Positions 243 to 23,573 of a stretch of DNA of 43,689 bases are shown here, in pieces. Position 1 is the first letter of the stretch, and every line of letters starts with the position of its first letter. Source of the stretch: Prevotella sp. (GTDB lineage Bacteria > Bacteroidota > Bacteroidia > Bacteroidales > Bacteroidaceae); assembly GCA_017509155.1 (NCBI GenBank), contig JAFWQE010000165.1:1-43689 (forward strand). Reading direction: 5' to 3'. Position numbers and translations under genes: made by a program. Below the pieces are notes generated by a model that ran no database searches, was not told the origin of the DNA, and saw only the letters and a list, made by a program, of their open reading frames with translations.

Positions 243-274
243 TTTGCTCGTTACACCGATTATTCGTAACTTTG
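243..274 (+). promoter_or_regulatory. Bacteroidetes-type promoter of the GTPase/SEDS/PBP operon
   Basis: TTTG at 243-246 and TAACTTTG at 267-274 are 20 bp apart, matching the Bacteroidetes sigma-ABfr consensus TTTG-N19/20-TAnnTTTG. Transcription should start near 280, giving an 85-nt leader before the ATG at 365. I found no comparable promoter in any later gap up to 13.77 kb, so this one may drive all seven genes. Confidence 0.75.
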
Positions 275-313
275 CGCTGTTTCACGAAACGCATAGAACG
301 TATATCATCAGTT

Positions 314-345
314 GAACATCCCCCTCGGGGGCTTGGGGGGCTTCC
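314..345 (+). repeat. G-rich hairpin repeat (copy 1 of 8)
   Basis: The copy has the form GAACAT-CCCCCTCGGGGG-CTTGGGGGG-CTTCC. The CCCCC and GGGGG runs can pair into a short hairpin. It lies in the leader of the first operon gene. Confidence 0.8.
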
Positions 346-364
346 CCACTTACAGCAGACAGGC

Positions 365-1189
365 ATGGCGACAGTTCTCGAAAACGACCAAACGACCCTT
401 TTCCAATACCCGGTTAGGCAGGAGTTTTCTCGGTCTAAGGGGTGGTTTTTGCCCACTGAGGTTGTCTTCTGGGGATGTCCGTCCTGTGGGAAGACCTCGG
501 CCATCTGTGCCTTGCTCTCGCTCGAGGGCATGAGCATCGACGCCGCCGATCCCTCACCTCTCTGCACCCCCTCCCTAAACAGGGAGGGCCGGGGAGGGTC
601 TCTGGAGGGTCTGGGAGGGTCTCTCAGTTCCCAGTCTTTGTATGTCAACGCCATCCATAAACCGGCATGGTGGACCCCTCGCCGCCCCTTCACCTTCGTG
701 GAGGTGCCGCTGACGGGCAAGACGCTTCCCGATGTCGACCTCAACCGGCAGCTGTCTCAGGTTCACCTGCTCTGCATCGACTGTCGCCAAGACCTCGACA
801 TGCAGGTGGGACGTCTGACGCCTGTGCTCCGCCATCTCAGCTTCGAACGCTATCTCGATGTCACTTCTGCCCTCCGCATTCTCATCATGAAGGCCGACCT
901 TCTCAACACTCCCGAGGGCTTTCGTCAAGACTGCGCGCAGTCGCTCGTCACCGCTCAGCTGCCTCGTTTCTGGAGCGATGTGCAGGCCAGTCTGCTGCGC
1001 CACGGCATGCTGAAACCCGCAGAGGTCAGGAAGGCCCTATGGCAACCCATCGCCTTCAGTGCAGGTGAGGCTGCCGATGTGCCCGATGCCTCTCCCATCA
1101 CCCATCACCCAACACCCAACACCCAGTCGGCCCAGCACCTCTTTCAGGACGTGATACGTCCGCGATGTCTACGACGTCAGTGGTGGTAG
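365..1189 (+). CDS. Small P-loop GTPase-like protein
   Basis: This 274-aa protein probably binds and hydrolyses GTP in the cytoplasm and acts with the GTPases downstream. It has a Walker A/G1 motif GCPSCGKT at residues 37-44, a hydrophobic strand ending in VPLTG near 114-118 where a G3 motif would sit, and ILIMKAD at 172-178, like a G4 motif with M in place of N or T. The same motif order appears in the proteins at 4228 and 6328. I chose the ATG at 365 because the longer open frame back to 158 would translate the promoter and the G-rich repeat. Two in-frame stretches look like invading intergenic repeats: residues about 65-90 (R/G/S/L-rich) and a His/Pro/Thr stretch near the C-terminus from CCCATCACC units. 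Cytoplasmic; no membrane segment. The GTPase assignment is an inference from three short motifs. Confidence 0.75.
   Translation: MATVLENDQTTLFQYPVRQEFSRSKGWFLPTEVVFWGCPSCGKTSAICALLSLEGMSIDAADPSPLCTPSLNREGRGGSLEGLGGSLSSQSLYVNAIHKPAWWTPRRPFTFVEVPLTGKTLPDVDLNRQLSQVHLLCIDCRQDLDMQVGRLTPVLRHLSFERYLDVTSALRILIMKADLLNTPEGFRQDCAQSLVTAQLPRFWSDVQASLLRHGMLKPAEVRKALWQPIAFSAGEAADVPDASPITHHPTPNTQSAQHLFQDVIRPRCLRRQWW
552..627 (+). repeat. Intergenic repeat embedded in a coding sequence
   Basis: The segment around CCTCCCTAAACAGGGAGGG, followed by repeated GGGAGGGTCTC, closely matches the reverse complement of the non-coding DNA at 17189-17262. Here it is read in frame and adds about 25 residues rich in R, G, S and L between the P-loop and the G3-like strand. 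Confidence 0.7.
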
Positions 1190-1206
1190 GGCCCCACTTA
1201 TCAGTT

Positions 1207-1238
1207 GAACATCCCCCTCGGGGGCTTGGGGGGCTTCC
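1207..1238 (+). repeat. G-rich hairpin repeat (copy 2 of 8)
   Basis: Same sequence as 314-345. It is flanked downstream by a run of TCACTT(A/G) simple repeats that leads into the ATG at 1272. Confidence 0.8.
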
Positions 1239-1271
1239 CCCTTATCACTTGTCACTTGTCACTTATCACTT

Positions 1272-4190
1272 ATGAACATCCTCAACCGCCTCAGCCTTCT
1301 CTCCTATAAGACGCCCTCCTTCAGGTCCGTTGCCACCGTCGGCGCCCTCCTGCTCGCCATCGCCTTCATCATCCTCCTCCTCGCAGGTTTCAGGGTGAAG
1401 GAAAACGTTGTCGTAACCGTCGATGCCATGACCTTCCCGCTGGCATCCGGCACCCAGCAGCCAACCGCCATCACCATGGGCCAGCACAGCGACATCTGCT
1501 ACGCCGGCGTCCCCGAGAAGTACCTGATCATCACGCCCACCGCTGAAGGCTACGACTGGCGTGTCAACGAGCAGTACCACGACTCGCTCCAGTATTTCAA
1601 GGTGAACAATGAGAACCCCAACCGACACATCATCAACAACACCACCGACCAGCAGCTCACCCTCACCCTCCAACCGTCAAGCCATCACCCATCATCCACC
1701 ACCCATCACCCCGAAATCACCCTCACCGGCGCCGACGTGTGGGCGTTCTGCAAGCGCTATAAGGACCAGAAAGACTTTCCCCTCCACCTGCTCGCAGCCC
1801 CGCAGGCAAAGCCGTCGCAGGTGCTGAGCAGCTCGTTCCTCCACGTTGACGGCGGCACCATCGCGCTCGTCATACTCGACGAGCACACCCGTCTCACCGA
1901 GGGTGGCACCAACGTTTCCTACATCCGTTCGGGCAGTGTGGCCGACAAGCAGTGCAAGGTGCAGTTCTTCAACGTCAGCGAGCTCACAACGCTCATCGAC
2001 GACAGTGTGCGCCACTTCCTCCGAGCCAGTGTGAAACTCACCGAATGGGGCGCCGGACACGTCATGCTTTCAAAGCTCGACGACCGCCTGCGCGTCAGTT
2101 TCCCCAAGCCCATCACCTTTGTGGCGCCCGCCGACTCGCTGCGCAAGGCGTCGCAGGCCAGCAGCCAGACCATCACCCTGAAGCAGAGCAACAATGCGTT
2201 TCCGTCGAAGAGCGACATCTTCCTGCCGCCTTTCTCCAACGCCATCAACTTCGATGTCTGCAACCTGGAGTTCTTCCACCCCGACGATTCCATCGTGGTG
2301 CGCGACAACGCCCAGCACGCCTACAATTTGGCCAGGCCCGGTCTGTCGCTCTTCCCCACCATCGGAAAGGCCCCGTTGCGCCTTCAGTCGGGACTCCATG
2401 AGCTGCAAGGGCGCGCCGGCATCATCAATGCCACGTTCTTCCTAAGCTATCTTTCCCTGCCGCTGCTTGTCACTCTGGTGCTCATCCTTCTGGTGTGGTC
2501 GCCCATCAGTCCTGTTCGTTTCCCCGGCCGTTCGCGCCGTGGCAAGCGTGGCCGTTCGTTGTCTGGCCAGCCCGTTGTGTCGGCCAAGAACCTCTACAAC
2601 AGCCGTTTGCTGGGCCATTATCCCACCTATCTGACGCTCATCCTGCTGGCAGCGTTCGTGTTCAGTGTGTGCAAGTCGCTCATTGCCCTCAAGCTCAGCT
2701 ACACCTATCCCTATTTTGAGAAGATTACCGCCATAACACCCGTTGCCACCGCCACCGCCATCCTTCTGTTCTTCTGTCTGGCCATGCTGTTCAACACACC
2801 GCTGCGCCAGGCTGTCGCCTCCCGTTGGCGAGGGCTGGGCAGCTGGCTGGTGTGCGCCCTGCTGCTGGCTGCGCTGGCCTGGCTGTTCTTCTTCGTGGTT
2901 GATCCGCGCAACAGTCAGCACGTCATCGACTCATATTTCCACCGCGAGGTCTATTCCCTGTTGCCGTGGCATTGGCTCACGCAGTATGGCATCAACGACA
3001 CCCACCGCTCGGTGCCCTACGCTCTTTTCTTTTCCGTAGCGGTGGTGCTGCTGGTGTGGCTTGTCATCGACGTGCTGCGGTTGTCGCATGTCAGGACCTT
3101 CAAGCTGCACGCTCCCGTTCCCGTTTCCCGGCTTCGTTTCCCCACCGTCAGCTCAAAGCTGTGGATTGTCTACGCCTTCAAGATTGCGTGGAACATCCTC
3201 TGTCCCGTCCATCTGCTGGTGCTCGTCGCCGTGGCCGTCATCGGCAGTCGTTTTGGAAACTTCGGCACCGCCTTCATCTCGTTGTTCGTCATCATCGGCC
3301 TCACGCGTGCCCTGAGCCAGGTCCACCAGTATGCCACCGAGTCGGTGTCGGGCAGCATCATACGCTTCACGGCCATGCTCATCATCTCCGCCTTCTACAT
3401 TCTGGCCGCCATGGTGGGCGACAACGGCTACATGACCAACTACCTGGGCATCGTCATGTGCCTGGTCACCTTCTTCTTCCTCATCGACCGTCCGCGCCCC
3501 CTTGGGGCCAATATGCAGCAGGCCGCCCGCAAGGAGCGCCGCAACATTCAGTTTGCCATTGCCGGTCTCACCGTGGCCGTCCTTCTCCTGCCCTTTGTCT
3601 GCAGCCGGCTGGTGAACACCGACAAGGTGAACTACACCCGTCTGGCGCGCCGCGTCATGCTCTATTCCAGCTTCAACGACCTGCAACGCAACGGCTTCCG
3701 CTACAGCGAGAGCGACGCAGAGTTCATGGTCATCATGAGCCATTACATGCACAACCACGAGGGCGGCGACCCCTTGTCCAACGACCGTCACTTCCTTCAC
3801 CCGTCCGTCAGCACCGGACAGTCGCCCGTGGTGCTCAACGACCTGTCCATGCCCGCGGCCTTCTTCGCCCCCTACGGCAACATGGCCACCACCGCCGTGT
3901 TCTTCATCATGCTCATGTTCCTGGCGTGGATGGTCATGCACTTCTCCATCAGCTTCGCCGACACCCTGCACCCGCTTCTCACCAAGGCGATGCAATGGCG
4001 GCTGATGGCCATGTTCATGTGGATAGGAACAAGCCTCTACATCTACCTCTCCTACATAGACCGCCTGCCGTTCACCGGCCGTCTCATCCCCGGCTATGGC
4101 GTGGATGCCGTGGGCGAAGCGCTCGAGAGCGCCATCCTCCTTGCCTTCATGGTCACCGTGACGTGCAGGAAAAAGACCATCGAGGGATGA
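1272..4190 (+). CDS. Large FtsW/RodA (SEDS)-like polytopic membrane protein
   Basis: This 972-aa inner-membrane protein may polymerise peptidoglycan glycan strands or handle lipid II. One helix (residues about 21-40) is followed by a soluble, presumably periplasmic domain to about 385, then by at least ten hydrophobic helices. Its end, LPFTGRLIPGYG followed by AVGEALES and a last helix, matches the layout of the SEDS terminal motif (LP-x-TG-x-x-LPF-x-SYGG). SDAEFMVIM at 814-822 may correspond to the RodA segment that carries the catalytic Asp (H-T-D-F-I-F), but there E817 would align with that Asp. SEDS proteins usually have about 400 residues, so the N-terminal half is extra. A His/Pro/Ser/Thr-rich stretch near residues 136-148 comes from CCATCACCC repeats. 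The transpeptidase at 10783 is the expected SEDS partner. SEDS membership is likely but distant. Confidence 0.7.
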   Translation: MNILNRLSLLSYKTPSFRSVATVGALLLAIAFIILLLAGFRVKENVVVTVDAMTFPLASGTQQPTAITMGQHSDICYAGVPEKYLIITPTAEGYDWRVNEQYHDSLQYFKVNNENPNRHIINNTTDQQLTLTLQPSSHHPSSTTHHPEITLTGADVWAFCKRYKDQKDFPLHLLAAPQAKPSQVLSSSFLHVDGGTIALVILDEHTRLTEGGTNVSYIRSGSVADKQCKVQFFNVSELTTLIDDSVRHFLRASVKLTEWGAGHVMLSKLDDRLRVSFPKPITFVAPADSLRKASQASSQTITLKQSNNAFPSKSDIFLPPFSNAINFDVCNLEFFHPDDSIVVRDNAQHAYNLARPGLSLFPTIGKAPLRLQSGLHELQGRAGIINATFFLSYLSLPLLVTLVLILLVWSPISPVRFPGRSRRGKRGRSLSGQPVVSAKNLYNSRLLGHYPTYLTLILLAAFVFSVCKSLIALKLSYTYPYFEKITAITPVATATAILLFFCLAMLFNTPLRQAVASRWRGLGSWLVCALLLAALAWLFFFVVDPRNSQHVIDSYFHREVYSLLPWHWLTQYGINDTHRSVPYALFFSVAVVLLVWLVIDVLRLSHVRTFKLHAPVPVSRLRFPTVSSKLWIVYAFKIAWNILCPVHLLVLVAVAVIGSRFGNFGTAFISLFVIIGLTRALSQVHQYATESVSGSIIRFTAMLIISAFYILAAMVGDNGYMTNYLGIVMCLVTFFFLIDRPRPLGANMQQAARKERRNIQFAIAGLTVAVLLLPFVCSRLVNTDKVNYTRLARRVMLYSSFNDLQRNGFRYSESDAEFMVIMSHYMHNHEGGDPLSNDRHFLHPSVSTGQSPVVLNDLSMPAAFFAPYGNMATTAVFFIMLMFLAWMVMHFSISFADTLHPLLTKAMQWRLMAMFMWIGTSLYIYLSYIDRLPFTGRLIPGYGVDAVGEALESAILLAFMVTVTCRKKTIEG

Positions 4191-4227
4191 ACGTTGAAAC
4201 CCGAAACCATCAAACAGAGAAAGAGAT

Positions 4228-5889
4228 ATGAATTCAAAACTGATGAAACGTCTGCGCTATTTCTTCCGCTATCAGGTAGCTGGCAGGAAGAGAATCTTCC
4301 TCGCCGTGGTCGGAACCACATCGAGCGGCAAGTCGTTTCTACTCAATGACATCCTCACATCGCTGGGCAGCATGTCGGCCGTCTTCACACCACTGTCGGA
4401 GTTTCCCATGAAGGGTATGCCGGCAGGGACGCTGATGCCGCTGAAAGACCTTGCCACCTATTCGCCCGACGAGTACGGCGGCAGCGGCGGAACGCCCATT
4501 TATGCGTGCCGGCAGAGCAACTTCTATGGCGCCGCCGTGCGCTACAACAACAGCCGCGACGTGCACGACCTGGTGTTTCTCAACATCCCCGGCGAGATAT
4601 TCAGCAAGGCAGAAAACGGCGCTCTGTCGCGACTGCAGGCCTACATCATGCTGAAGTCGCGCATTGCCCAGCTGAAGAAGCGGTTCTATGTGTCGCGATG
4701 GGTGAACTCCGCCGGCGATGAGCGCCTCATCGTCCAGCCCGTCGTGCCCAACCCCGCCAGCGTTTCGGCAACGAACAATCCGATGTCTGCCTCGCCACAA
4801 CTGCCAACCATCAAAGGCGCGCTGTACGTGAACTACCGCGACTGGAACGAAATATTCAGCGACCTCAACGCCTCTGGCTTCCGTTTCGTCGAGAAAAGCC
4901 GCCGCAAGATCAGCGGCCGCAAGCTGCTGAAGTCGTTCTTCTTCTACGACACCGACTCCATCATGATGACCATCAACGACATGATAGAGACCGGACAGCT
5001 GCAGGAACTGCCCTTCACCGCGACCGACTTCCGCGGCCGTCTCTACGACAACGCCTTCACGTTCTTCCACTTCTGCGCCCTGGCCTCCGACATTGTGCTC
5101 TGCGACCGCATCTTTACAAAGCGCGAGGCCAACACCGACGAGATGCTTTTCGGCGACCTTGCCGACGGCCTTCAGTCGTTTCTCGACGACTGCACCGAGG
5201 ACAAGAAGAACGTCTACCTGGCGTTCCGCAACGTCGACTTCCTCATGCTTGAGAAGGAAAAGGAATACCAGAAGCTCTATAACGAGACGCTGAGCTGCCT
5301 GAGCACCGAGGGGCGCCGCAACGCCATCTACTCGCTGTTCAGCTACGCCATGCTGCATCATGTGGACCCCACGCTCAATATTCCCGAGAAAGAGTTTGCC
5401 GACTTCATCGGACTGCCTGCCGAGATGAGCGATGCCGCGAAGAAGGCCATCCCCTCCGACCCGGCGACCATCACCGACCTCATGGTCGACCTCGACGGCG
5501 CCGACGGACACATCCACATGGCGGCATCGCTGAGAAACCACATCTCGACACGCATCGGCGGCGAGGGACACGCCTTCCGAAAGCTCCTGCAGAAGACCGG
5601 ATATGCACCCGAGCAAACCAGCGATGCACGCTCGAGAATCGTGCCACACGTCTACTTCACGTGCACCCCCATCACCCAGAACTACGAAATCTACCAGAAC
5701 TATCTGGAAGGCGACATGGTGGCCAGCGACTTCAGTCGCGAGGTAGACGGCTATGTGTACAAGTTCCATGAGCAGTTCTCCCACGCCTGTTTCGGCAGCT
5801 ATCAGCTGTGTATGGACATACTTACGCAGCATCGGCTGGGCGATTTCGAGAAGGGTTCGCTGCTGATGATTGAGGAGGAGGAAGTGTAA
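4228..5889 (+). CDS. P-loop GTPase-like protein (TRAFAC/DO-GTPase type?), paralog 1
   Basis: This 553-aa cytoplasmic protein has a clear Walker A motif, GTTSSGKS at residues 29-36, preceded by a beta-strand (IFLAVV). A hydrophobic strand ending NIPGE (119-123) sits where a G3 DxxG motif is expected, and NVYLAFRNVDFL (328-339) fits a G4 strand with R-N-V-D in place of N-K-x-D. Other blocks are DIVLCDRI (288-295) and, near the C-terminus, PHVYFTCTPIT and ACFGSYQL. All of these recur in the protein at 6328, so the two are paralogs. The start is 37 bp after the upstream stop, with no promoter between them. The family is probably the one named TRAFAC-clade or double GTPase in conflict and signalling loci, but I cannot confirm that. 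There is no membrane segment, so it probably acts on the inner face of the membrane next to the SEDS-like protein. Confidence 0.8.
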   Translation: MNSKLMKRLRYFFRYQVAGRKRIFLAVVGTTSSGKSFLLNDILTSLGSMSAVFTPLSEFPMKGMPAGTLMPLKDLATYSPDEYGGSGGTPIYACRQSNFYGAAVRYNNSRDVHDLVFLNIPGEIFSKAENGALSRLQAYIMLKSRIAQLKKRFYVSRWVNSAGDERLIVQPVVPNPASVSATNNPMSASPQLPTIKGALYVNYRDWNEIFSDLNASGFRFVEKSRRKISGRKLLKSFFFYDTDSIMMTINDMIETGQLQELPFTATDFRGRLYDNAFTFFHFCALASDIVLCDRIFTKREANTDEMLFGDLADGLQSFLDDCTEDKKNVYLAFRNVDFLMLEKEKEYQKLYNETLSCLSTEGRRNAIYSLFSYAMLHHVDPTLNIPEKEFADFIGLPAEMSDAAKKAIPSDPATITDLMVDLDGADGHIHMAASLRNHISTRIGGEGHAFRKLLQKTGYAPEQTSDARSRIVPHVYFTCTPITQNYEIYQNYLEGDMVASDFSREVDGYVYKFHEQFSHACFGSYQLCMDILTQHRLGDFEKGSLLMIEEEEV

Positions 5890-5964
5890 TGGTAGCGCAA
5901 AACTGCCAATCTGGAGCAAGCAAACCACTGCTTTCGCGCGCCCGTTTTGCCGGTTTCTGGAAAC

Positions 5965-6052
5965 AAAACCATTGGAATCGTTGAACAAATCCATTGGAAT
6001 TGTTGAACAAAATTAATGGAATCGCCCAACAAATCCATTGAAATCGTTCCAG
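5965..6052 (+). repeat. Array of four 22-bp units (CCATTGG family)
   Basis: Four consecutive 22-bp units of the form AAATCCATTGGAATCGTTGAAC. Units 1-2 are well conserved and 3-4 drifted. The array is in reverse orientation relative to those at 14837 and 43005. A GCCGGTTT segment precedes it, as in the other arrays. Confidence 0.8.
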
Positions 6053-6108
6053 AAAACCGTAGAAATGCAGCCGTAAGATTGACAGATAACATTCAAGAAA
6101 ACGACAAT

Positions 6109-6306
6109 ATGAACGAGGAGAAGTATAAGACCATCATCTTTATTCCTTCATCCTTCATCCATAAACGACAACAAATGAGTGAGGAGAAGTATCAAGCCTT
6201 CATCCATCATCCTTCATCCTTCATCAAGAAAAGGCAACAGGTAAGATAGGAGAAGTATCAAGCCTTCATCCATCATCTTTCATCCTTCATCCAAGAAGCA
6301 TAAATC
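6109..6306 (+). repeat. 66-bp tandem repeat with mini-ORFs, upstream of the second GTPase
   Basis: Three 66-bp units start at 6109, 6175 and 6241. Units 1 and 2 begin with ATG and form one 46-codon frame (stop at 6247-6249). Each unit encodes the type MSEEKYQAFIHHPSSF followed by a basic tail. Unit 3 begins with GTA and has stops. The same unit recurs at 7852 and 7918. The 438-bp gap 5890-6327 holds this repeat and the 22-bp array; I see no real gene in it. Confidence 0.75.
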
Positions 6307-6327
6307 CTTCATCCATAAAAGAAACAA

Positions 6328-7674
6328 ATGACGTTGAAGAAGACAGACCTCAGCAAGATGCTTTCCGTTCTTCCGCTCTGGTGCGGCGGACGGAAGGAGG
6401 TGCGCCTGGCGGTGATTGGCAGTCGCGGCAGTGGCAAGAGCTACCTGCTGTTCGACCTCATTCACGCCTTCGCACAGCTGGGATTCGTGGCCGAACCCGA
6501 ACGTCAGGGCCGCCGACATGGCACGCTTGGCACGTTCTTCTACGACGCGCTGAGCGCCGACGGCCGCGGAATGAAACCCACCAAGCGCTATTTCTGCCAG
6601 CCCAGCAGCCATTATCGCATCGTGTTCCGCAAGGGAGCGCTCGGCCGTCTGCACCTGGATTTCCTCAATATTGCGGGCGATGTGTTCGACGGAGGAAAGC
6701 GCAAGCTGGCCATGTTCTTTGAACTGAAGCGCTGCATAGAACTCGCGGAGAAAGGCGTGTTCACGCTGAGCGAATGGCGCAATGCCGTGGGCGCGTGCGA
6801 GCTGATGGTCAACGCAGGGCAGAATCCGTCGTCGACGCTCCCTGCCGAAATGGGGTTCATGGAGGTGAGCCGCAAGGAAGTGAGCGGAAAAGCGCTGCTC
6901 AAAGACATCACCCATCTGAACACCGCCTCGTTGATGGCGGCCATCCGCAGCGAGTGGAAGCGCATCACCAGCTGGCAGGCGCTGGAGCTGGCGGAATACG
7001 AAAGCCTCGGCATCATCAACGATTTCTACGCGCTGATGGTGTGCCTCAGGGCGACCGATATCGTCGTTTGCGACCGGCTCTCGGCACCGACAGGCGTAGG
7101 AGAGCTGCTGGAGACGCTGGCCCACTACATCGCAGGCAAGGACGATGCGCCGCCGAACGTCTATCTGGCGTTCCGCGAGGCAGACCTGTTGCTGAAGCCA
7201 TCGGTGAAGGATGCCGGCGGCGACCTCTACGCAACGGCGAGCAAAGAGATAGCATCGGTGCTGAAGAACGGAGTGCACACCGCCACGTCTGTCGTCTCCA
7301 TGGACGAGCCCTTGCGCCGACATATCATGCAGAGCATAGGTGCCGGCGTGGGACATGCCTTCTGGCACCTGCTCAATGCCTGCACGGGGCAGCACAGCGT
7401 GGCGCGACAGGTGCAGCGACTCAGAAACGAGCCCACCATCTTTGAGCTGGCTGCCCGCGGCGACATGCCGCCGCACGTCTACTTCACGGCCACTCCCATC
7501 GACGCCGAGCTGCACCGCTACCGACTGCAGGAGGAAGAAAAGGACGACGCCTCCCGCTTCTACTGCGACGACGGAGGCCAGCGGCGCTGGTTCACCACGC
7601 AGCTCACGCGAGGACAGACCGGCCACCTCTGCTTCGGAAGTCTTCAGCTGCTCAGAGATATATTGGATAACTGA
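6328..7674 (+). CDS. P-loop GTPase-like protein, paralog 2
   Basis: This 448-aa protein is a shorter paralog of the one at 4228. It has Walker A GSRGSGKS at residues 31-38, a strand ending NIAGD at 114-118, DIVVCDRL at 244-251, NVYLAFREADLL at 277-288 (G4-like, R-E-A-D), and C-terminal blocks PHVYFTATPID and LCFGSLQLLRDIL. Asn where a canonical GTPase has Asp in G3 (N-I-x-G) is shared with paralog 1, so it is a family trait and not a chance loss. Two divergent partners may form a heterodimer, which would suit GTPases that activate by dimerising, but that is inference. No transmembrane segment is visible. The ATG at 6328 follows a run of repeats whose stops block any upstream extension. Confidence 0.8.
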   Translation: MTLKKTDLSKMLSVLPLWCGGRKEVRLAVIGSRGSGKSYLLFDLIHAFAQLGFVAEPERQGRRHGTLGTFFYDALSADGRGMKPTKRYFCQPSSHYRIVFRKGALGRLHLDFLNIAGDVFDGGKRKLAMFFELKRCIELAEKGVFTLSEWRNAVGACELMVNAGQNPSSTLPAEMGFMEVSRKEVSGKALLKDITHLNTASLMAAIRSEWKRITSWQALELAEYESLGIINDFYALMVCLRATDIVVCDRLSAPTGVGELLETLAHYIAGKDDAPPNVYLAFREADLLLKPSVKDAGGDLYATASKEIASVLKNGVHTATSVVSMDEPLRRHIMQSIGAGVGHAFWHLLNACTGQHSVARQVQRLRNEPTIFELAARGDMPPHVYFTATPIDAELHRYRLQEEEKDDASRFYCDDGGQRRWFTTQLTRGQTGHLCFGSLQLLRDILDN

Positions 7675-7679
7675 AAAGT

Positions 7680-7709
7680 GGAAGCCCCCCAAGCCCCCGA
7701 GGGGGATGT
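7680..7709 (-). repeat. G-rich hairpin repeat (copy 3 of 8)
   Basis: Reverse-complement copy, GAAGCCCCCCAAGCCCCCG then AGGGGGATGT, starting 6 bp after the end of the second GTPase gene. Confidence 0.8.
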
Positions 7710-7731
7710 GGGAAACTGAGTACTGAGAGGA

Positions 7732-7761
7732 GAAAGCCCCCCAAGCCCCCGAGGGGGATGT
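7732..7761 (-). repeat. G-rich hairpin repeat (copy 4 of 8)
   Basis: A second reverse-complement copy in direct tandem with the previous one, followed by GTGAGAAGTGA simple repeats. Confidence 0.8.
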
Positions 7762-7800
7762 TTTAAGTGAGAAGTGATAAGTGAGAAGTGAGAAGAAAAG

Positions 7801-7983
7801 CATCAAGCCTTCATCCATCATCCTTCATCTTTCATCAAGAAAAGACAATAGGTGAGCGAAGAGAAGCATCAAGCCTTCATCCATCATCCTTCATCTTTCA
7901 TCAAGAAAAGACAATAGGTGAGCGAAGAGAAGCATCAAGCTTTCATCTTTCATCCTTCATCCTTCATCCATCATAAAACCATC
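7801..7983 (+). repeat. 66-bp tandem repeat with mini-ORFs, upstream of the bridging protein
   Basis: Units begin with GTG at 7852 and 7918, preceded by a partial unit from 7801. The unit at 7852 encodes about 21 residues (VSEEKHQAFIHHP...) and stops at TAG (7915-7917) directly before the next GTG. The last unit stays in frame with the gene that starts at 7990. The sequence matches the repeat at 6109-6306. Confidence 0.75.
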
Positions 7984-7989
7984 AAAGCA

Positions 7990-10653
7990 ATGAATAAGAC
8001 CATTCACATCGCACAGTTTGCAGCCGGGTCACGGCTCGACAACATCGGCGACACCACGCTCTTCTATAGCGAGGGGTTCAGCAAGCGGGCCAACGATGTC
8101 AGAGGCATCTTCCTCGACAACCCGCCCGTGCTGTCGCCACGCCACGCCAGTCTTGTTTGGCGCTATTATAAAGATGTGGACAGATACATGCTCATGCATG
8201 TCCAGGGCTCGCACGTGGTGAACACCGCCATGGGGCGCAATTATCCGTTCCGCGCTGCCTACGAGGTGAGCCGCAACGAGATGAACGCCATCGACTTCGC
8301 GCTCACCGCCCTCTTCGCGGCCATGCCGCGCATCGCCACCATGCCCACAGGGCGGGCGCAGGGCGAGCGCACCATCGATGTCTATCATCCGCCGCTGTCC
8401 GGTCAGGCCGAGGCGCTGGCCTACCATCTGCTCAACGCACTGTTGCGAGGCGAAAGGCTCTATGTCACCCTGCCCGTTCCGGCCGACAGCTATCGCGCCG
8501 ACGGCATCTTCAGCGCGCCCGAACTGGCGGTCGTGCTCTCGGCCATTGAGCATCTGCCGTTGCAGCTGCGGCGCTATGCCACCTTCGGATTCTGCGTCGA
8601 CAACCGCTTCAGCTATGTGCTCGACGACGTCTTGCTGATGGTCATCCCGCAGGATAGTGGCAGTCAGATGGTGCCAGCGGCGCAGAATGCCAGCGTCATG
8701 ACGTGGCAACAGGCCGTGGGAACCCGTCCCGCCGTCGACCAGAATGCCTACAATGCCCTGCAGGGCGTGACGCTGCCCGGCGCCGACAGTCCGCTGCTTC
8801 CGCTCGATGCCCTCCACCGGGCCGTGGAGGTGGCGAAGAAACAGCCGTTGGCACTGAGCGCCGATGAGTGGCCGATATGGCTCGCACTCGGCCGACAGCT
8901 CACGGAACTGAAGGTGGAGAGCTGGCCGCAGCTGGCCGACGTCTGCCGTCGCATGGATGCGCAGACAAGGGAGAAGATGGCCGCGACATATAGAAAACCG
9001 TCGCTACGCTGGTCGCTCAAGGGCTTCGATGAGGCCTTGCTCGCACTGATGCACTACGGCGACGACGAGATGCGGCAGCTGCAGCGCGCCGCACTCCCCG
9101 CATACCTCTTCTCCGGCAGCTATGCGTTCCTCTTCAAGGAAGGCATGAACGACAGGGTCAAGGAGATGCTCGATGCCAACCTGCTCAGCGCCAGCACCCA
9201 GCAAACGTCGTCGAACACCCCGGCCATCATTATGAAATGGTACGATATCTACGCCACCAACAAGCGACTCGGGGCGACAGGCGTGCAGACGCTGTTCAAG
9301 GACCTCATGACCCGTTATGTGGCGCCCCAGCTCAGCAATCTCAGCGACATCGTGGCACTCATGGAGAAATGTCCCTTCGTGCCGGCCACGGCCTTCGTGC
9401 AGCCCGCCAAGGTCTACATGCCGCAGAACATGCAGCGACTCGCGCCCGAGCACAAGAAACTGGTGGAGCAATGGATTAGGAAAGCCGTCGACAGCATGGC
9501 GTTCACCTCCGTCGACGAGGTGGCAAAGCTGATGGAGAAGGTCAATGCCAAGGAGGTGTCGCCAGAGGCCGTGGAGCTGCAGGCACTGCGCAGCATGAAG
9601 GCAAAGGACCTGAAGGCGCTGCTCGTCGGCACGTCTCAGCAATCGGTGGTGGCGGCCTGCGAGCGACTGCTTGCACCGACCAGCCGGCTGCCGCGCTCGT
9701 GGCGCGACTTCACCATGCAGCAGGTGCTGCCCGCCGTCGGCGACGTGCTCTTCTCTTCGGTGGGCGCCATGCCGCGCGAGATGCTGCTCGACACCCACCA
9801 ATGGGCACGGCTCGGCCCGCTCAAGAAACAGGCGCCACACGTGTTTGCGCTCCTCGCCGAGCGCCTTTCACAGCTTTTCGCCACCGCACCCTACAAGGCC
9901 ATGGCCGACAGCGTGAAGAAAATGCGCTCGCAGGCGGCACTTCCCATCATCGATATCTTCATCCAATCATTAAGAAAACGCAACAAGAATATGGCAAACG
10001 AATTAGAAAAACAGTACAAGGCGCTCAGGAAGTCCTCACGCCGTGGCCAGCTCTTCCGGCTCATCGGCTGTCTGGTGGCCGGCATTCTGGTGGGCGCAGT
10101 GCTCACCTATGGCGGAATGAGTCTCTACAAATGGCTGTCGGGCCCCGAAAAGACGGAGCCGACCAGCGGCACCAGCATCCTCTGGGCCGACAACGGACAA
10201 GGCAACATGATGGCGCGACTGGCCGACATGGCCGACTGGGACAACGTCAGCGCCGTCACCGTCGACACGTTCAGCGTGAAAGACCTGTCGTTCGGACAGA
10301 CCGCCGACCTCCTTCTCCTCAACCAGCGCTACTACGCCAGCCCGACCACACCGAAGACAGAGCCCGCCAAGGCCGTCGTCTACAGTGTCGACGAGAAAGG
10401 ACAGCCCATGGCAGTTTCCAAGGCCGACACGCTGTCGTTCGACAGTTCCCACTCGCTCCTTTCCACCGTTTGCAGCCGCAACTGCCGCATCGGCGCCATC
10501 CTTGTGCAGGACACCATCGTGGTGGATGTGCCCAACAAGGAGCTGACAGCCGCAGACTCCACCGCCCTCTCCACCAAGGACGCCCGCTACTATCTGCGTG
10601 TGGTGAAGTATGTGCAGTCGCGTCTGCCCAAGGGAACCGTCATCGCCTATTGA
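7990..10653 (+). CDS. Large cytoplasmic protein with one C-terminal transmembrane helix (possibly GAP1-like)
   Basis: The 887-aa protein has about 685 soluble residues without an obvious catalytic motif, a basic and helical stretch (ELEKQYKALRKSSRRG), one strong helix at residues about 690-712 (LIGCLVAGILVGAVLTYGG), and a C-terminal domain of about 170 residues that should be periplasmic. The N-terminal 130 residues loosely recall the GAP1-N domain of GTPase-associated proteins, which fits its position after two GTPases, but that resemblance is weak. Its topology would let it carry a signal from the GTPases to the wall enzymes encoded next. I chose ATG 7990; a GTG at 7918 is in frame but would translate a copy of the 66-bp repeat. 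I do not know its reaction. Confidence 0.7.
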   Translation: MNKTIHIAQFAAGSRLDNIGDTTLFYSEGFSKRANDVRGIFLDNPPVLSPRHASLVWRYYKDVDRYMLMHVQGSHVVNTAMGRNYPFRAAYEVSRNEMNAIDFALTALFAAMPRIATMPTGRAQGERTIDVYHPPLSGQAEALAYHLLNALLRGERLYVTLPVPADSYRADGIFSAPELAVVLSAIEHLPLQLRRYATFGFCVDNRFSYVLDDVLLMVIPQDSGSQMVPAAQNASVMTWQQAVGTRPAVDQNAYNALQGVTLPGADSPLLPLDALHRAVEVAKKQPLALSADEWPIWLALGRQLTELKVESWPQLADVCRRMDAQTREKMAATYRKPSLRWSLKGFDEALLALMHYGDDEMRQLQRAALPAYLFSGSYAFLFKEGMNDRVKEMLDANLLSASTQQTSSNTPAIIMKWYDIYATNKRLGATGVQTLFKDLMTRYVAPQLSNLSDIVALMEKCPFVPATAFVQPAKVYMPQNMQRLAPEHKKLVEQWIRKAVDSMAFTSVDEVAKLMEKVNAKEVSPEAVELQALRSMKAKDLKALLVGTSQQSVVAACERLLAPTSRLPRSWRDFTMQQVLPAVGDVLFSSVGAMPREMLLDTHQWARLGPLKKQAPHVFALLAERLSQLFATAPYKAMADSVKKMRSQAALPIIDIFIQSLRKRNKNMANELEKQYKALRKSSRRGQLFRLIGCLVAGILVGAVLTYGGMSLYKWLSGPEKTEPTSGTSILWADNGQGNMMARLADMADWDNVSAVTVDTFSVKDLSFGQTADLLLLNQRYYASPTTPKTEPAKAVVYSVDEKGQPMAVSKADTLSFDSSHSLLSTVCSRNCRIGAILVQDTIVVDVPNKELTAADSTALSTKDARYYLRVVKYVQSRLPKGTVIAY

Positions 10654-10704
10654 CAATCACATATCACTCATCACTTCTCACTTCTAAGTTCTCAGTTTTC
10701 AGTT

Positions 10705-10736
10705 AGACATCCCCCTCGGGGGCTTGGGGGGCTTCC
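10705..10736 (+). repeat. G-rich hairpin repeat (copy 5 of 8)
   Basis: Lies in the 129-bp junction before the transpeptidase gene, with CAGTTCTCAGTTTT-type simple repeats on both sides. Confidence 0.8.
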
Positions 10737-10782
10737 CACCTCTCAGTTCTAAGTTCTCAGTTTTCAGTTCTCAGTTTTCCCC

Positions 10783-13602
10783 ATGAACGACCCCAGAATA
10801 GACAAGCACTTACAGAACGACAAGCAGCTGCCGCTGCGGCCGTTCCTCGTTGCAGGCATCCCCTTCCTGGTCATGCTGCTGGCCTTTCTGCTTACCTTCT
10901 TCCAAGGATGCACCGAACTGGGCAGCGCCAGCAAGCACAACATCTACGACCCCACCAGCTCCCTGAGTGAGGATGAGGGCTTCGTAGGCAAGTCCAACCA
11001 GCTGCTCAGACACCTGCTCGCCAAGGTCGACTCCAGCGTGGAGGCCACCTGCCTCGACAGTCTCAACAAGCGATACAAGGCGCTTGAGTTCGCTCTTCCG
11101 TATGGCGAGGAGCACAAGGCCTACATCGAAGCCGCCGACCTACGCCTGGTGGCCGTCCATCCAGAGTACATCAGCGACGACGATCTGCGCGTGTTCTACT
11201 ACAACAGCCGTCTGCCGCAGCTGCTCCGACTGCAGTCCCAGCAGAAGGGCGAGACCTTCTTCAGGCTCACGCTGAGCCCCGTTCCCAAGACCGTCAGGGG
11301 AGGTGTGAAGCCCATCGTCGTCAAGGACATCACCCTCATCCCGTCCATGTTCAAGGTGATGCTGACCAAGAGCCCCTGGACCGGCACCATCTATGCCAAC
11401 GACAACTGTCTCTTCAGCGACACCAACGCCGTGTTCCTCAGCTACGGAAACACCGTGCTGCCCCTGAGAACACAGAAGAAGCTCACCCGCGACAACCCCA
11501 TCTTGTTCCAGGCAGTCATGCACGACGGCACCCTGCTCGCGTCAGCGCAACCGTCCCAGACCACCAAAGAAGCATCCTCTCAGACGCCCCGACGCCCGGC
11601 GCCGATAGACTATTACGACTACTACACGAAGGCCTTTGCCACCGACGCCCAGCGAGCCGTGCGCATCGAACTGCACGACGAGCCGCTGAAGCCCCGTCTG
11701 GCCAGCTTCCTCATCAGCTGCACCCGCGACAGCGTCCTCATCTCCGCCAACACGCCCGTCAACGTGGTGGCCGACGGACAGTCGCTCACCTTCCTGCCCC
11801 CCACGACAGGCTCGCAGCGCCCGCCCGTCATTCCGTTCCGCGACGGCATGAAACTCATCGTCTACGACATGCAGAACCAGAAGATGGGCGAGTTCGCCCT
11901 CCAGCGCGAAAACCCCGCCCGCGTGCTCTCCTGTCTGGTGCATGCCAGCACCGGCACCAGCCGCTTCTACATCGCTCCCGAGCAGACCGACCTCTTCACA
12001 CAGCAGATGCTGAAGGGACTGGCCCGCCATTTCTCCAGCAGCGACAACATAGACAGCCTGCAGCTGTCCATAGACCCGCTGCTCTCGCGTGAGTTCGAGG
12101 CCGACGTAAAGCGCTATCTCCACGACCTGCAGCAGACCATCAGCCGCGAGAAGCCCGCTACGCAGGTGAAGGAACAGTATGACATGTCGGTCACCATCAT
12201 GGACCTTGCCACCGGCGACATCCTCGCATCGCCGTTCTACAACACCCTGTTCGACAGCTCCGACTTCCCCGTGGCGCTGCGCATGACCACACGCAACGCC
12301 GCCCTCTCGCGCCGTTCCATCGGCTCCGTGTTCAAGCCCATGGTCGCCCTGGCCGCCGTCGAGGCTACGCCGTCACTGCTCAACATGGACACACAGACGC
12401 CCCGTCGCTACAGTGTCAACGGCAGTCTCGACGACCCGAAGGCCAAGGCAACGTTCTTCGGACGGAGCACCTACGCCTGGGCACGCAAGTCGGCCACCCA
12501 CTGGGGAGGATGCAATTTCACCACCTTCCTGCAGCGTTCCGACGACGTATACCCCGTGGCGCTCGCCGCATTGGCCATGACAGGACAGGACATGGACGCA
12601 GCCACCATCACCACGCTCCCCCTTTCGGGCAACAGCAACTTCTTTGAGCTGGGCCGGGGACAGATGCTGAAGTTCAAGCGCTTCAGCGATGCCAACCCCT
12701 CATCGGCCACACAAGCCCCGTCAAATGGCGCCATCGACACGCGCGACCATCCCTTCACCGACTGGCTGGCCTACCTTTATAACACCAGCTACGACAAGGA
12801 TCTCTACGTCGACCTCAACCCCTTTGCCGCCCTCATCAACCGCACCGACCCCAGCCGCAAGGAAGATTTCGGACTCGAGGAAGTCAGTCCCGAGCTCACC
12901 AGTCTGCGCATGGACCGCTTCTACGACGGCGACGACTTCAAGGCGCGGCTCGTGCCGTGGGTGCTCGGACAGGGCGACAACGCCTGGAACTGCATCAAGC
13001 TCACCGAGGCATGGGCGCGGATGATAGGCAAGTACGACGTCAAGGCATCGTTCCTGCGTTCCGACACCCTCCATCCCGTTTCGCTCGTTCGCGACGGCGC
13101 CCAGTTCCCCAGCAGCTCCGTCGGACAGCGGTCGCTGAGCGCCATCAACGCCACGTGGAACAGCTTCCTCGACAAGCTCAGCAGCGCCCAGAAAGGCGGT
13201 TCGCTCCTGAAGCAGATGAACGACCGCGTGGACGCCCTCAACAAAGCCGAGCACACCTCGCTGACGCTCTTCTCGAAGACCGGAACGCCCGATGCCTACA
13301 TCCGCTATGAGTTCCCCATGCTCGGCGGCAACAACCGCTACGTCGACGTCGGCCTCTACGCCTTTGCCCTGACCGATGGCGGCCAGTATGAGCGCATCCG
13401 GCAGAACCAGCCCGCCAAGGGCATCGCCTGCGTCGTGCGCATCACCCGCTCCTATCAGTGCCGGCAGTGCCGCCCAGGCCACCAATGCCGCAGCTGCGAG
13501 AGCTTCTGGGGACTCAAGTCGGCGCACGCCCGCGACTTCTTCGCCGCCGCCTCCTCCCACCGCCTCGAGAAACTCTACCACATGACAAAGTCCTATTACT
13601 GA
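10783..13602 (+). CDS. Penicillin-binding transpeptidase-like membrane protein
   Basis: This 939-aa protein is predicted to be a D,D-transpeptidase that cross-links peptidoglycan in the periplasm, as partner of the SEDS-like protein. One N-terminal helix (about 19-42) anchors it. The transpeptidase motifs appear in order: SVFK with S515 as nucleophile and K518, SDD at 586-588 in place of the usual SxN, and KTGT at 832-835. About 450 residues lie between the anchor and the catalytic domain, and the domain carries a large insertion between SDD and KTG. The last 65 residues hold five cysteines in a CxxC...CxxC-like cluster (CRQCRPGHQCRSC), unusual for a periplasmic enzyme and suggestive of metal binding or disulphides. 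The SDD change could reduce or redirect activity. The start at 10783 lies directly after the repeat junction. The fold is likely; full activity is uncertain. Confidence 0.8.
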   Translation: MNDPRIDKHLQNDKQLPLRPFLVAGIPFLVMLLAFLLTFFQGCTELGSASKHNIYDPTSSLSEDEGFVGKSNQLLRHLLAKVDSSVEATCLDSLNKRYKALEFALPYGEEHKAYIEAADLRLVAVHPEYISDDDLRVFYYNSRLPQLLRLQSQQKGETFFRLTLSPVPKTVRGGVKPIVVKDITLIPSMFKVMLTKSPWTGTIYANDNCLFSDTNAVFLSYGNTVLPLRTQKKLTRDNPILFQAVMHDGTLLASAQPSQTTKEASSQTPRRPAPIDYYDYYTKAFATDAQRAVRIELHDEPLKPRLASFLISCTRDSVLISANTPVNVVADGQSLTFLPPTTGSQRPPVIPFRDGMKLIVYDMQNQKMGEFALQRENPARVLSCLVHASTGTSRFYIAPEQTDLFTQQMLKGLARHFSSSDNIDSLQLSIDPLLSREFEADVKRYLHDLQQTISREKPATQVKEQYDMSVTIMDLATGDILASPFYNTLFDSSDFPVALRMTTRNAALSRRSIGSVFKPMVALAAVEATPSLLNMDTQTPRRYSVNGSLDDPKAKATFFGRSTYAWARKSATHWGGCNFTTFLQRSDDVYPVALAALAMTGQDMDAATITTLPLSGNSNFFELGRGQMLKFKRFSDANPSSATQAPSNGAIDTRDHPFTDWLAYLYNTSYDKDLYVDLNPFAALINRTDPSRKEDFGLEEVSPELTSLRMDRFYDGDDFKARLVPWVLGQGDNAWNCIKLTEAWARMIGKYDVKASFLRSDTLHPVSLVRDGAQFPSSSVGQRSLSAINATWNSFLDKLSSAQKGGSLLKQMNDRVDALNKAEHTSLTLFSKTGTPDAYIRYEFPMLGGNNRYVDVGLYAFALTDGGQYERIRQNQPAKGIACVVRITRSYQCRQCRPGHQCRSCESFWGLKSAHARDFFAAASSHRLEKLYHMTKSYY

Positions 13603-13639
13603 TGCCCACCTCTCAGTTCTCAGTTCTTAGTTCTCAGTT

Positions 13640-13672
13640 AGACATCCCCCATCGGGGGCTTGGGGGGCTTCC
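13640..13672 (+). repeat. G-rich hairpin repeat (copy 6 of 8)
   Basis: Variant copy with CCCCCATCGGGGG in place of CCCCCTCGGGGG. It precedes copy 7 in the 172-bp junction before the lysozyme gene. Confidence 0.8.
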
Positions 13673-13705
13673 TACCTCTCCGTTCTCCGTTCTCTGTTCT
13701 CAGTT

Positions 13706-13737
13706 AGACATCCCCCTCGGGGGCTTGGGGGGCTTCC
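13706..13737 (+). repeat. G-rich hairpin repeat (copy 7 of 8)
   Basis: Canonical copy. The junction is arranged as CAGTTCTC repeats, copy 6, CCGTTCTC repeats, copy 7, CAGTTCTC repeats, then ATG. Confidence 0.8.
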
Positions 13738-13774
13738 CACCTCTCAGTTCTCAGTTCTCAGTTTTCAGTTTAAT

Positions 13775-14623
13775 ATGACAAACAAACGCCCAAACGCCCG
13801 AACGACCAAACGCCCCAAGCGCCGCTCTTCCGCCTCTAAGCGAGGCAAGAAGGGCTTTCTCGAGAAACTCCTCACGCCGTCGAAGGCGAGCAAGCGGAGC
13901 TTCCGCCGTCTGGGCTATGTCGCCTGTGCCGTCGCCATCGTCGCCGCCCTGTTCTTCTGCACCCCGCTCTCTTCCCACCTCTCACTTCCCACCTCTCGCT
14001 CTTCAAAGGGCTCGGCCAGATCCTCCTACCACGGCATCGACATCTCCAAACACCAGGGGCGCATCAACTGGAAGACCGTGGCCAAGGACCGCAACATACA
14101 GTTCGTCTACATCAAGGCCACCGAAGGCGCCTCCGTGGTTGACCGTCACTACCAGAAAAACCTGCATGAGGCGAGGGAGGCAGGACTGCGCGTGGGCAGC
14201 TATCACTTCTTCCGCGCCTACAAGTCCGCCATGGAACAGTTCGAACTGTTCAAACGCCACGTGAAGAAAGGACAGCAGGACCTCATCCCCATGGTCGATG
14301 TCGAGGAGACCGGCAACCGGCAGGTCAGCCGCCAACGGCTGCAGCGCAACCTCCGGGAGTTCATGGAACTGATGAAAAAACACTACGGCAAATACCCCCT
14401 GCTATACAGCCAGTACCGCTTCTACAACGAGAAGCTCGCGCCGGAGTTCAACCGCTACTTCATCTTCATTGCGCGCTACGGCAAGCGAGAGCCCGTGCTC
14501 AAGGGCGGCGGCAAGTACAACATCTGGCAGTATTCCGAGCGCGGCCGCATCAAGGGCATCGAGGGCTATGTGGACCTCGACCGCTTTGCCAACGGCACCA
14601 CCATCCGCGACATCGAGCTCTGA
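13775..14623 (+). CDS. Membrane-anchored GH25 muramidase (lysozyme)
   Basis: This 282-aa protein should cut the MurNAc-GlcNAc bond of peptidoglycan. The first 45 residues are strongly basic, a helix follows at about 47-64, then a Ser-rich linker, so it is a type II membrane protein with a periplasmic enzyme. The GH25 domain covers about 85-280: GIDISKHQG at 87-95 with D89, IKATEG at 113-118, GSYHFFR at 141-147, MVDVEETG at 173-180 with the catalytic pair D175/E177, WQYS, and a final VDLDRF. The linker comes from CCCACCTCTCACTT repeats like those in the intergenic DNA. It is the last gene of the operon, and a lytic enzyme beside a polymerase and transpeptidase points to wall remodelling. A phage origin is unlikely because no phage genes are nearby and the enzyme has its own membrane anchor. 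Confidence 0.9.
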   Translation: MTNKRPNARTTKRPKRRSSASKRGKKGFLEKLLTPSKASKRSFRRLGYVACAVAIVAALFFCTPLSSHLSLPTSRSSKGSARSSYHGIDISKHQGRINWKTVAKDRNIQFVYIKATEGASVVDRHYQKNLHEAREAGLRVGSYHFFRAYKSAMEQFELFKRHVKKGQQDLIPMVDVEETGNRQVSRQRLQRNLREFMELMKKHYGKYPLLYSQYRFYNEKLAPEFNRYFIFIARYGKREPVLKGGGKYNIWQYSERGRIKGIEGYVDLDRFANGTTIRDIEL

Positions 14624-17262: not shown

Positions 17263-17335
17263 GAGGTGAGTGGTAAGAGGTGAGAGGATACTTCTTCCGC
17301 TTCCTCTCTCACTTTTCACTTCTCACTTTTCACTT

Positions 17336-17365
17336 CAACATCCCCCTCGGGGGCTTGGGGGGCTT
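17336..17365 (+). repeat. G-rich hairpin repeat (copy 8 of 8)
   Basis: The last copy in the window. It follows TCACTTTTCACTTC simple repeats and lies upstream of the BspA-like gene promoter. I found none between here and the end of the window. Confidence 0.8.
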
Positions 17366-17387
17366 ATCTCACATTTCACACCATTTG

Positions 17388-22839: not shown

Positions 22840-22867
22840 TAAATAAGGTATAAGGAAAGGTGATCTA

Positions 22868-22990
22868 TGGGAGTTTGGGAGTTTAGGAGTCTGGGAGTTT
22901 GGACAATAGTTCTTTTTCAGGCAAACCGCTAAAGATGCGAAAACCACTATTGTCCACACTCTCATACTCCCACACTCCCAAACTCCCACA
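22868..22990. repeat. Hairpin repeat with GGACAATAGT core, after argH
   Basis: GGACAATAGT pairs with ACTATTGTCC, a perfect 10-bp match. The arms are GGGAGTTTAGGAGTCTGGG on the left and CTCCCACACTCCCAAACTCC on the right. It ends 17 bp before the next start codon. Confidence 0.8.
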
Positions 22991-23006
22991 ACAAATAATC
23001 AAGAGC

Positions 23007-23573
23007 ATGATGACAAAGATAAGATGTCTGTTAGCGTTGCTTGTGTGTTTCGTGCTGGGCGGCTGCGGTGACTCGGAGTTCGAGTTCTCGGGCCACCACG
23101 CCTTTTTCGTGTTCGACAACTCTCTCCATCTGGACCCTACGCTGTCGAGTGCGATGAACGCCATGTCGCCAGGCATCTTCTGCCGCATCAGCATCAAGAG
23201 CGCTGGCCGCGTCAATTTCGACAACAACCAGGGACAGAGCAGTCAGGTCACTCTCAGCGCCTTGGAGCAGCAGTCGCACAAGATGCTCGGCGTGTACAAC
23301 GAAAGCGGTCTCATCGTGGGCTTCGCCACGCTGTCACAGCCCGTCACCTTCTGTGCCTTCGACGCGCAGTGTCCCAACTGCTACGAGGAGACCATGATGC
23401 CTCGCTACATGCTCACCATGGACACCACCGGCAAGGTTTCGTGCAAAAACTGCGGACGGACATACGACATGAACAACAACGGCATCATCAGCAGTGGCGG
23501 AAACGGCAAGAAACTGATACGCTACAGGGCAACCACCAACGGACCCTTTGGTCTTATCAGAATAGACAATTAA
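23007..23573 (+). CDS. Rieske-like lipoprotein with cysteine-only metal site
   Basis: This 188-aa protein has a lipoprotein signal (CLLALLVCFVLGGC, lipobox LGGC with C20), so it is anchored in a membrane facing the periplasm or surface. The C-terminal half reads like a Rieske domain (AFDAQCPNC at 117-125, KVSCKNCGRTYD at 143-154, then G-rich turns and L-I-R-Y), but the two ligand pairs are CPNC and CKNC where a Rieske centre has C-x-H and C-x2-H. Four cysteines suggest zinc or a rubredoxin-like iron site instead of [2Fe-2S]. Start: ATG at 23007; the next ATG, at 23010, is equally possible. Function unknown. Confidence 0.75.
   Translation: MMTKIRCLLALLVCFVLGGCGDSEFEFSGHHAFFVFDNSLHLDPTLSSAMNAMSPGIFCRISIKSAGRVNFDNNQGQSSQVTLSALEQQSHKMLGVYNESGLIVGFATLSQPVTFCAFDAQCPNCYEETMMPRYMLTMDTTGKVSCKNCGRTYDMNNNGIISSGGNGKKLIRYRATTNGPFGLIRIDN

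Follow-up and report, generated by a model that had tools for sequence, protein, structure and literature searches.

Why would a single operon combine three P-loop GTPase-like proteins with a polytopic membrane protein, a penicillin-binding protein (PBP)-like transpeptidase and a muramidase? This question is raised by contig JAFWQE010000165.1 of a Prevotella sp. genome (assembly GCA_017509155.1), which was analyzed over its whole length of 43,689 bases and is called the window here; the source genome consists of 229 contigs and is 82% complete and 6% contaminated. Seven co-directional open reading frames (ORFs) on the + strand, named A to G, extend from about 350 to 14623 in the window. An earlier note, made from the sequence alone, had described this co-directional set with its P-loops, SxxK and KTG motifs, GH25 residues and membrane segments, and all of these features were present on re-examination. 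The explanation that we favor, with a probability of about 0.5, is that a GTPase/GAP1 switch encoded by the operon is coupled to a dedicated wall synthase of SEDS-like/PBP type.

Conservation of the operon

Gene B is rare. Used as a query, it matched 4 of the 201 family genomes, one of them the window's own, and no match came from the 12 further genomes listed for the genus. A profile of B matched 2 of 296 genomes of the phylum, the window's own and that of a member of another class (G543), and within the class of G543 the latter was the sole carrier among 98 genomes. Gene C as a single-sequence query detected only the window's genome among 295 genomes of the order. A scan of a species-genome collection with two short peptide patterns, which is not exhaustive, yielded 28 loci with B (designated by L numbers), two of which (L043 and L048) derive from one isolate. 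The record titles name Prevotella, Prevotellaceae, Muribaculaceae, Porphyromonadaceae, Bacteroidales and Marinilabiliaceae metagenome-assembled genomes, five of them from rumen or omasum.

Five of these loci (L031, L040, L046, L048, and L049) stop in or just past B, which left 23 that could be judged by mapping ORFs with profiles. GTPase genes lie 3' of B in all 23, with one membrane gene intervening in L033, L043, and L044. Gene E is present in each of the 22 loci with enough sequence, as a separate gene in 20 and fused to F in two (L029 and L035), and gene F in 21 of 21 judgeable loci, being split in L030. A GH25 gene follows F in 10 of 20 judgeable loci, a count for which L044 ends too early and some loci offer only about 1.2 kb past F. 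The order is the same in G543, where B is followed by a membrane protein gene, two C-like ORFs, E, and F. B, C, E, and F are thus found in all judgeable loci, and the G, D, SH3, and TIR genes vary. The operon is a recurring unit, rare but well conserved in rumen and related Bacteroidota. The expectation of the earlier note that the genes recur together across genera, with the GTPases tied to B, was borne out by every judgeable locus and by the genome from another class.

The distance matrices of B, E, and F (19 proteins each) correlate with r of 0.93-0.97, and this agreement fits joint inheritance. In a comparison of the window with L022, its closest relative, in which synonymous sites are almost saturated, the ratios of nonsynonymous to synonymous polymorphism (pN/pS) were 0.38 for B, 0.23 for C, 0.47 for D, 0.35 for E, 0.26 for F, and 0.33 for G; this range fits functional genes. 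The optional GH25 gene could be a passenger, as would be expected if unrelated envelope genes had become neighbors by chance, but the gene order persists in 23 loci as well as in G543, and some members are fused. A chance cluster was rejected on the strength of this linkage, and we consider a mere chance neighborhood extremely improbable.

The PBP-like transpeptidase F and the muramidase G

Gene F (10783-13602, + strand) codes for a bitopic, PBP-like transpeptidase of 939 amino acids. On the same strand, its SxxK motif (SVFK, residues 515-518) is encoded at 12325-12336, its second motif, SDD instead of SxN, at 12538-12546, and its KTG motif (residues 832-834) at 13276-13284. In an alignment of the window's F with those of 20 loci, from which the split F of L030 was left out, SxxK and KTG are kept in all 21 proteins, and the second motif reads SDD in 20 of them and SNN in L045. 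PBP2-type enzymes carry SxD at the second motif. Judged by these three motifs, SxxK, an SxD-type second motif, and KTG, F is predicted to be a penicillin-binding transpeptidase. The Pfam Transpeptidase model matched the F of the window with an E-value of 0.0048, below the cut-off, the best member with 1.4e-6, and 19 of the 21 proteins at an E-value of up to 0.1. The NCBIfam model PBP_1a gave 9e-6, far under its cut-off, and a PDB profile search with F returned nothing at 0.1. The match of F to E. coli MrdA is confined to the stretch up to SxxK, and a large N-terminal part is without a Pfam match. At the C-terminus, a four-cysteine stretch occurs in 15 of the 21 proteins, those of L029, L033, L035, L036, L044, and L045 being without it.

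Gene G (13775-14623, + strand), an optional member of the operon, unambiguously encodes a GH25 muramidase (Pfam PF01183, 1.8e-42, 146 bits against a cut-off of 27) with a hydrophobic N-terminal segment seen by eye. A search of the window's proteins against PHROGs matched GH25 endolysins.

Gene B and its relation to SEDS proteins

Gene B (1272-4190, + strand) encodes a polytopic membrane protein of 972 amino acids. According to a simple hydropathy scan, an N-terminal segment is followed by a large, probably extracytoplasmic domain and then by many transmembrane segments. When 26 B proteins were compared with 38 SEDS proteins, a set that joins an earlier one with ten proteins from other phyla and for which distant B members were also added, a score of 33.1 was obtained; the reversed control scored 22.5, and none of 150 shuffles reached the score of the match (best 26.7). 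Smaller sets had given a probability of 0.9% with 17 Bacteroidales SEDS proteins and of 11% with 28 SEDS proteins, in the latter case with 0 of 30 shuffles reaching the score.

Several features of B, aligned by eye, come in the order known from SEDS proteins: a DxG before a transmembrane segment, an RRV...G(Y/F)...ES motif where the loop that precedes the last three transmembrane segments begins, an invariant ND before the next transmembrane segment, and LPFTGRL.PG before the last one. The last three can be set beside RRV...GYQ..QS, HTDFIF, and P..G...P of E. coli FtsW. The aspartate of the ND motif, Asp857 (codon 3840-3842, + strand), is invariant in 23 of 23 aligned proteins. In E. coli FtsW, D297 is the SEDS catalytic aspartate (PMC8765783), and Asp857 is proposed as its counterpart. 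For the SYGG motif, the glycine has a conserved counterpart in B and the tyrosine has none. B is therefore described here as a probable remote relative of the SEDS proteins, on sequence evidence that is suggestive but not decisive and has modest statistical support. The label "large FtsW/RodA-like", which the earlier note had given to B, goes too far in that no Pfam model supports it and it rests on remote similarity. The ordinary SEDS genes of the window's genome are found by the SEDS model on two other contigs, which argues that the operon would provide an extra, dispensable wall synthase and not a housekeeping one.

The GTPase-like proteins A, C, and D

Gene C (4228-5889, + strand) encodes a DO-GTPase-like protein with the P-loop GTTSSGKS and with NIPGE instead of DxxG, and gene D (6328-7674, + strand) a paralogue of C with the P-loop GSRGSGKS. 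The window's gene A (350-1189, + strand) encodes a short form, of about 274 amino acids, of a further DO-GTPase-like P-loop protein (GCPSCGKT). Two C/D genes are present in the window and in 11 of the 22 loci with sequence past C.

In profile comparisons with 20 DO-GTPases, drawn from eight plasmid systems and two same-class genomes, 28 C/D proteins gave an E-value of 1.8e-7 over 126 columns and 18 A proteins one of 9e-9 over 186 columns. With eight ordinary GTPases of the same genome as a control, the match covered the P-loop only (26 columns for C/D and 20 for A); the DO-GTPases matched these control GTPases over 174 columns, as expected within one superfamily. The C of the window matched Pfam DO-GTPase2 at 0.0088, below the cut-off, and A, B, D, and E of the window had no useful Pfam match. 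A PDB profile search with C/D found only the P-loops of EngA-type GTPases. PGE or AGE, with the Walker B glutamate that is conserved in the TRAFAC-type DO-GTPases, is present in 27 of the 28 aligned C/D proteins, and the D of the window has AGD. In the place of DxxG, the C/D proteins mostly carry LNIPGE; the aspartate is retained in L045, L029, and L036 (MDIAGE, LDVPGE). Instead of NKxD, forms such as FRxxD occur, in which the aspartate is retained. The A proteins are without a DxxGE motif, except for a fusion in L029 (LIDMAGE, TKYD; see below). In L033, L043, and L044, C has an N-terminal extension, which showed no match to A. From these profiles and motifs, A, C, and D are classified as distant relatives of the DO-GTPases, some of them with drifted nucleotide motifs.

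The GAP1-like protein E

Gene E, which starts at 7918 (GTG) or 7990 (ATG) and ends at 10653 (+ strand), encodes a bitopic protein with a GAP1-like N-terminal domain, one transmembrane segment, and a C-terminal domain; the hydrophobic segment lies near residues 688-706 in a simple hydropathy scan. The first 80 residues or so align with the N-termini of 12 GAP1-N1/N2 proteins (score 30.8, 74 columns), whereas the reversed control scored 15.8 and 0 of 150 local column shuffles reached 30.8 (best 21.5). Comparison with GAP1-N1 alone or with two GAP1-N2 proteins alone gave no significant match. The only PDB profile matches of E, to S100 proteins along a helical stretch (best 0.002), were taken as chance. 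E is probably a divergent GAP1 protein, as far as this alignment can tell. The earlier note had guessed at DO-GTPase and GAP1 homology, and its guess largely holds: C/D and A match DO-GTPase profiles, but the likeness of E to GAP1 is suggestive and lies below the Pfam thresholds. In the E-F fusions of L029 and L035, the GAP1-like domain lies N-terminal to the membrane segment of the PBP; this would place the domain in the cytoplasm if the PBP is outside.

Directly upstream of B in L045 there are a DO-GTPase2 protein (1.8e-7, over the cut-off) and a GAP1-N2/GAP1-M protein (5.8e-31 and 1.8e-9), so the known module adjoins the operon in at least one case. L045 is the only locus in which a true GAP1-N2 was seen next to B. 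PF20013 was detected in 2 of 25 operon-bearing genomes (L040, L043, and L048 were left out), namely that of L045 and, on a separate contig, that of L124, and in 0 of 198 genomes of the phylum. PF19993 matched 13 of 198 genomes of the phylum, three of them over the cut-off, and three weak matches that were examined resembled ABC ATPases; PF20012 matched 3 of 247, two over the cut-off. The DO-GTPase2/GAP1-N2 cluster of L124 (contig 14 of G816) includes a gene that by eye is HSP70-like, akin to the HSP70 theme of Kaur et al. (2020).

Gene A, the upstream protein M, and the local copy

In 16 loci, an upstream gene encodes a membrane protein, here called M, of about 270-300 amino acids. In the comparison of M' of distant loci with M, the score was 33.5 and that of the reversed control 32.5. 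The A proteins of relatives comprise about 570-630 amino acids in 17 loci and have a transmembrane segment, in the three that were scanned by hydropathy, as well as a C-terminal half, whereas A in the window has only 274 amino acids. In L029 and L035, M and A are fused into one protein that is located after F. The guess of the earlier note that genes further upstream belong to the system proved right, as relatives have M and a full-length A ahead of B.

The reading frame of gene A is open from 158, its likeness to relatives begins near 350, and the first ATG was taken to be that at 365. The match between A of the window and A of L022 (599 amino acids) ends at residue 272; with 42% identity and a pN/pS of 0.62, A is more divergent than B to G. 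With the L022 protein as a query, M was not found in the window's genome, which is incomplete and whose contig begins there. Gene A is flanked by two copies of an intergenic repeat (repeat family D9), one with the CATCCCCCTCGGGGGCTTGGGGGGCTT core on its left (308-355) and one on its right (1201-1248), and a deletion or misassembly is therefore possible. The repeat consists of a C-run/G-run core flanked by TCTCAGTT-like units and is found between several genes of the operon; further copies are located at 10699-10746, 13635-13682, 13700-13747, and 17330-17377, and an inverted one at 7670-7761.

Neighboring genes and other features

At the 3' end of the operon in L032, a gene for a TIR + NPHP3_N protein (21852-23024) begins 12 bases past F according to the ORF calls, like a last operon gene. 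The surroundings of the L045 operon (L045:4667-6599 and L125:208-1522) include two TIR proteins encoded upstream on the opposite strand (one by Pfam, one by eye) and, several genes past the downstream end, an M50-like membrane peptidase as well as an FHA/zinc-ribbon protein. A weak M50-like match follows F in L081. Upstream of the operon in L026 (4345-6938), a GYF_2/CD225 protein and a kinase/CD225 protein are encoded on the opposite strand, and similar GYF-like proteins were seen by eye in L038 (5021-6898). SH3 proteins adjoin the operon in L027, L029, and, by eye, L035, which suggests contact with the wall. Elsewhere in the window, direct repeats with units of 78 bases (26 codons) occupy 17787-18410 inside the ORF 17454-19997, and direct repeats with units of 88 bases are found at the right contig end (43182-43689).

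Relation to known systems

The operon resembles the DO-GTPase/GAP1 systems described by Kaur et al. (2020; PMC7159879), in particular the GAP1-N2 type, in that P-loop GTPases, often paired (in 38% of the published systems), are followed by a GAP1-like protein, a probable one in the case of E, and in that membrane and extracytoplasmic parts are present. It differs from them in that E and the GTPases A, C, and D are below the Pfam cut-offs. No Pfam match to a GASH (N1) or FNIII (N2) partner was obtained for the seven window proteins at an E-value of up to 1. Themes named by Kaur et al. are tubulin, HSP70, and kinases; the main text of PMC7159879 contains none of the terms FtsW, RodA, penicillin, transpeptidase, and muramidase. 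DO-GTPase is mentioned in psp operons in PMC11237479.

Like the pairs of SEDS protein and class B PBP, FtsW-FtsI and RodA-PBP2, the operon unites a polytopic protein with SEDS-like motifs in order and a bitopic transpeptidase with catalytic motifs. Unlike in these pairs, B, at about 1000 amino acids, includes a large N-terminal domain and is not recognized by the SEDS model, and B and F are not adjacent but separated by the GTPases and E. In the actinobacterial rodA-pbpA-pknB-fha operon, a SEDS-PBP pair stands beside a signaling module of kinase, phosphatase, and FHA proteins. The combination of SEDS-PBP and signaling would be shared with the present operon, in which GTPases and a GAP1-like protein take the place of that module. 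The earlier note had called the gene set undescribed; a literature search, outside which most subscription journals and preprints lay, showed no paper on it, but its GTPase/GAP1 half is related to a published kind.

This relationship bears on a possible role in conflict, in which the DO-GTPase/GAP1 switch would sense an invader or predator at the envelope and wall synthesis and cutting would seal, reinforce, or kill the cell. Kaur et al. read DO-GTPase/GAP1 systems as conflict systems (PMC7159879), the spread of B over the family, the phylum, and the class of G543 is sporadic, and TIR proteins adjoin the operon of L045 or, with NPHP3_N, start right after F in L032. However, TIR neighbors were met in just 2 of 28 loci, flanks having been tested with Pfam in few loci, and several other flanks look housekeeping-like by eye. 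DO-GTPase/GAP1 systems have variable effector genes, whereas the core of B, C, E, and F is fixed here, and this fixed composition argues for an envelope function. Relatives were found neither for B in viral contigs, nor for F in viral contigs or phages, nor for C in plasmids, and a phage or plasmid system was rejected on these pairings, the only ones searched. A known defence family was likewise rejected, since PADLOC returned only weak, chance-level matches for the window's proteins. We therefore regard a defence system as rather unlikely; the operon may serve wall building, repair, or defence.

Discussion

How could the proteins of this operon work together as a GTPase-gated wall synthase? 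A and M would sense the state of the membrane or wall, and C and D, once loaded with GTP, would act on E through its GAP1-like domain in the cytoplasm. From E the change could then pass through the membrane to B and F, which would lay down or repair peptidoglycan, and G, where present, may cut the wall as needed.

Several points weigh against this explanation. The B proteins of 23 members gave no match to PF01098 at an E-value of up to 1, a PDB profile search with B returned nothing below 1.2, the HH-suite probability of a match between B and SEDS proteins was at most 15%, and in the comparison with 28 SEDS proteins the reversed control did about as well (29.7 vs. 31.4; with a longer query 31.2 vs. 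30.1). For E and GAP1, the HH-suite probability was just 15%, and 20 members of E gave no Pfam GAP1 match. Most aligned C/D proteins have Asn for the G3 Asp, and NKxD is lacking, so that GTP binding is not assured. Plain shared descent may suffice for the agreement of the B, E, and F distances, and the local copy of the operon, with its short A and with M not found, may be impaired, damaged, or misassembled.

An alternative is an envelope-sensing complex that does not polymerize wall material. F would then act as a PBP-like receptor that binds wall fragments or beta-lactams and signals inward via E to the GTPases, and B would be an unrelated polytopic protein. That B misses both the SEDS model and the SEDS chains of the PDB speaks for such a complex, and the large N-terminal part of F and its prevailing SDD for SxN are in line with it. 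However, SxxK and KTG are kept in all 21 aligned F proteins, and the motifs of B stand in the order and place of those of SEDS proteins, and we thus hold this alternative to be doubtful and clearly improbable.

The GTPase/GAP1 switch with its SEDS-like/PBP wall synthase might represent a third kind of SEDS-PBP synthase beside the elongasome and the divisome, gated by GTPase and GAP1 and used on demand only; we offer this as a tentative suggestion, with the odds against it. If it were true, DO-GTPase/GAP1 modules could command peptidoglycan synthesis as an output. In PMC7159879 and PMC11237479, these modules are treated by genome analysis and their output is predicted. Their invariable linkage, in part as fusions, to a transpeptidase and a SEDS-like protein would give them a testable output, wall synthesis, and the operon would offer an example from nature of a SEDS-PBP pair that may be controlled by a nucleotide switch.

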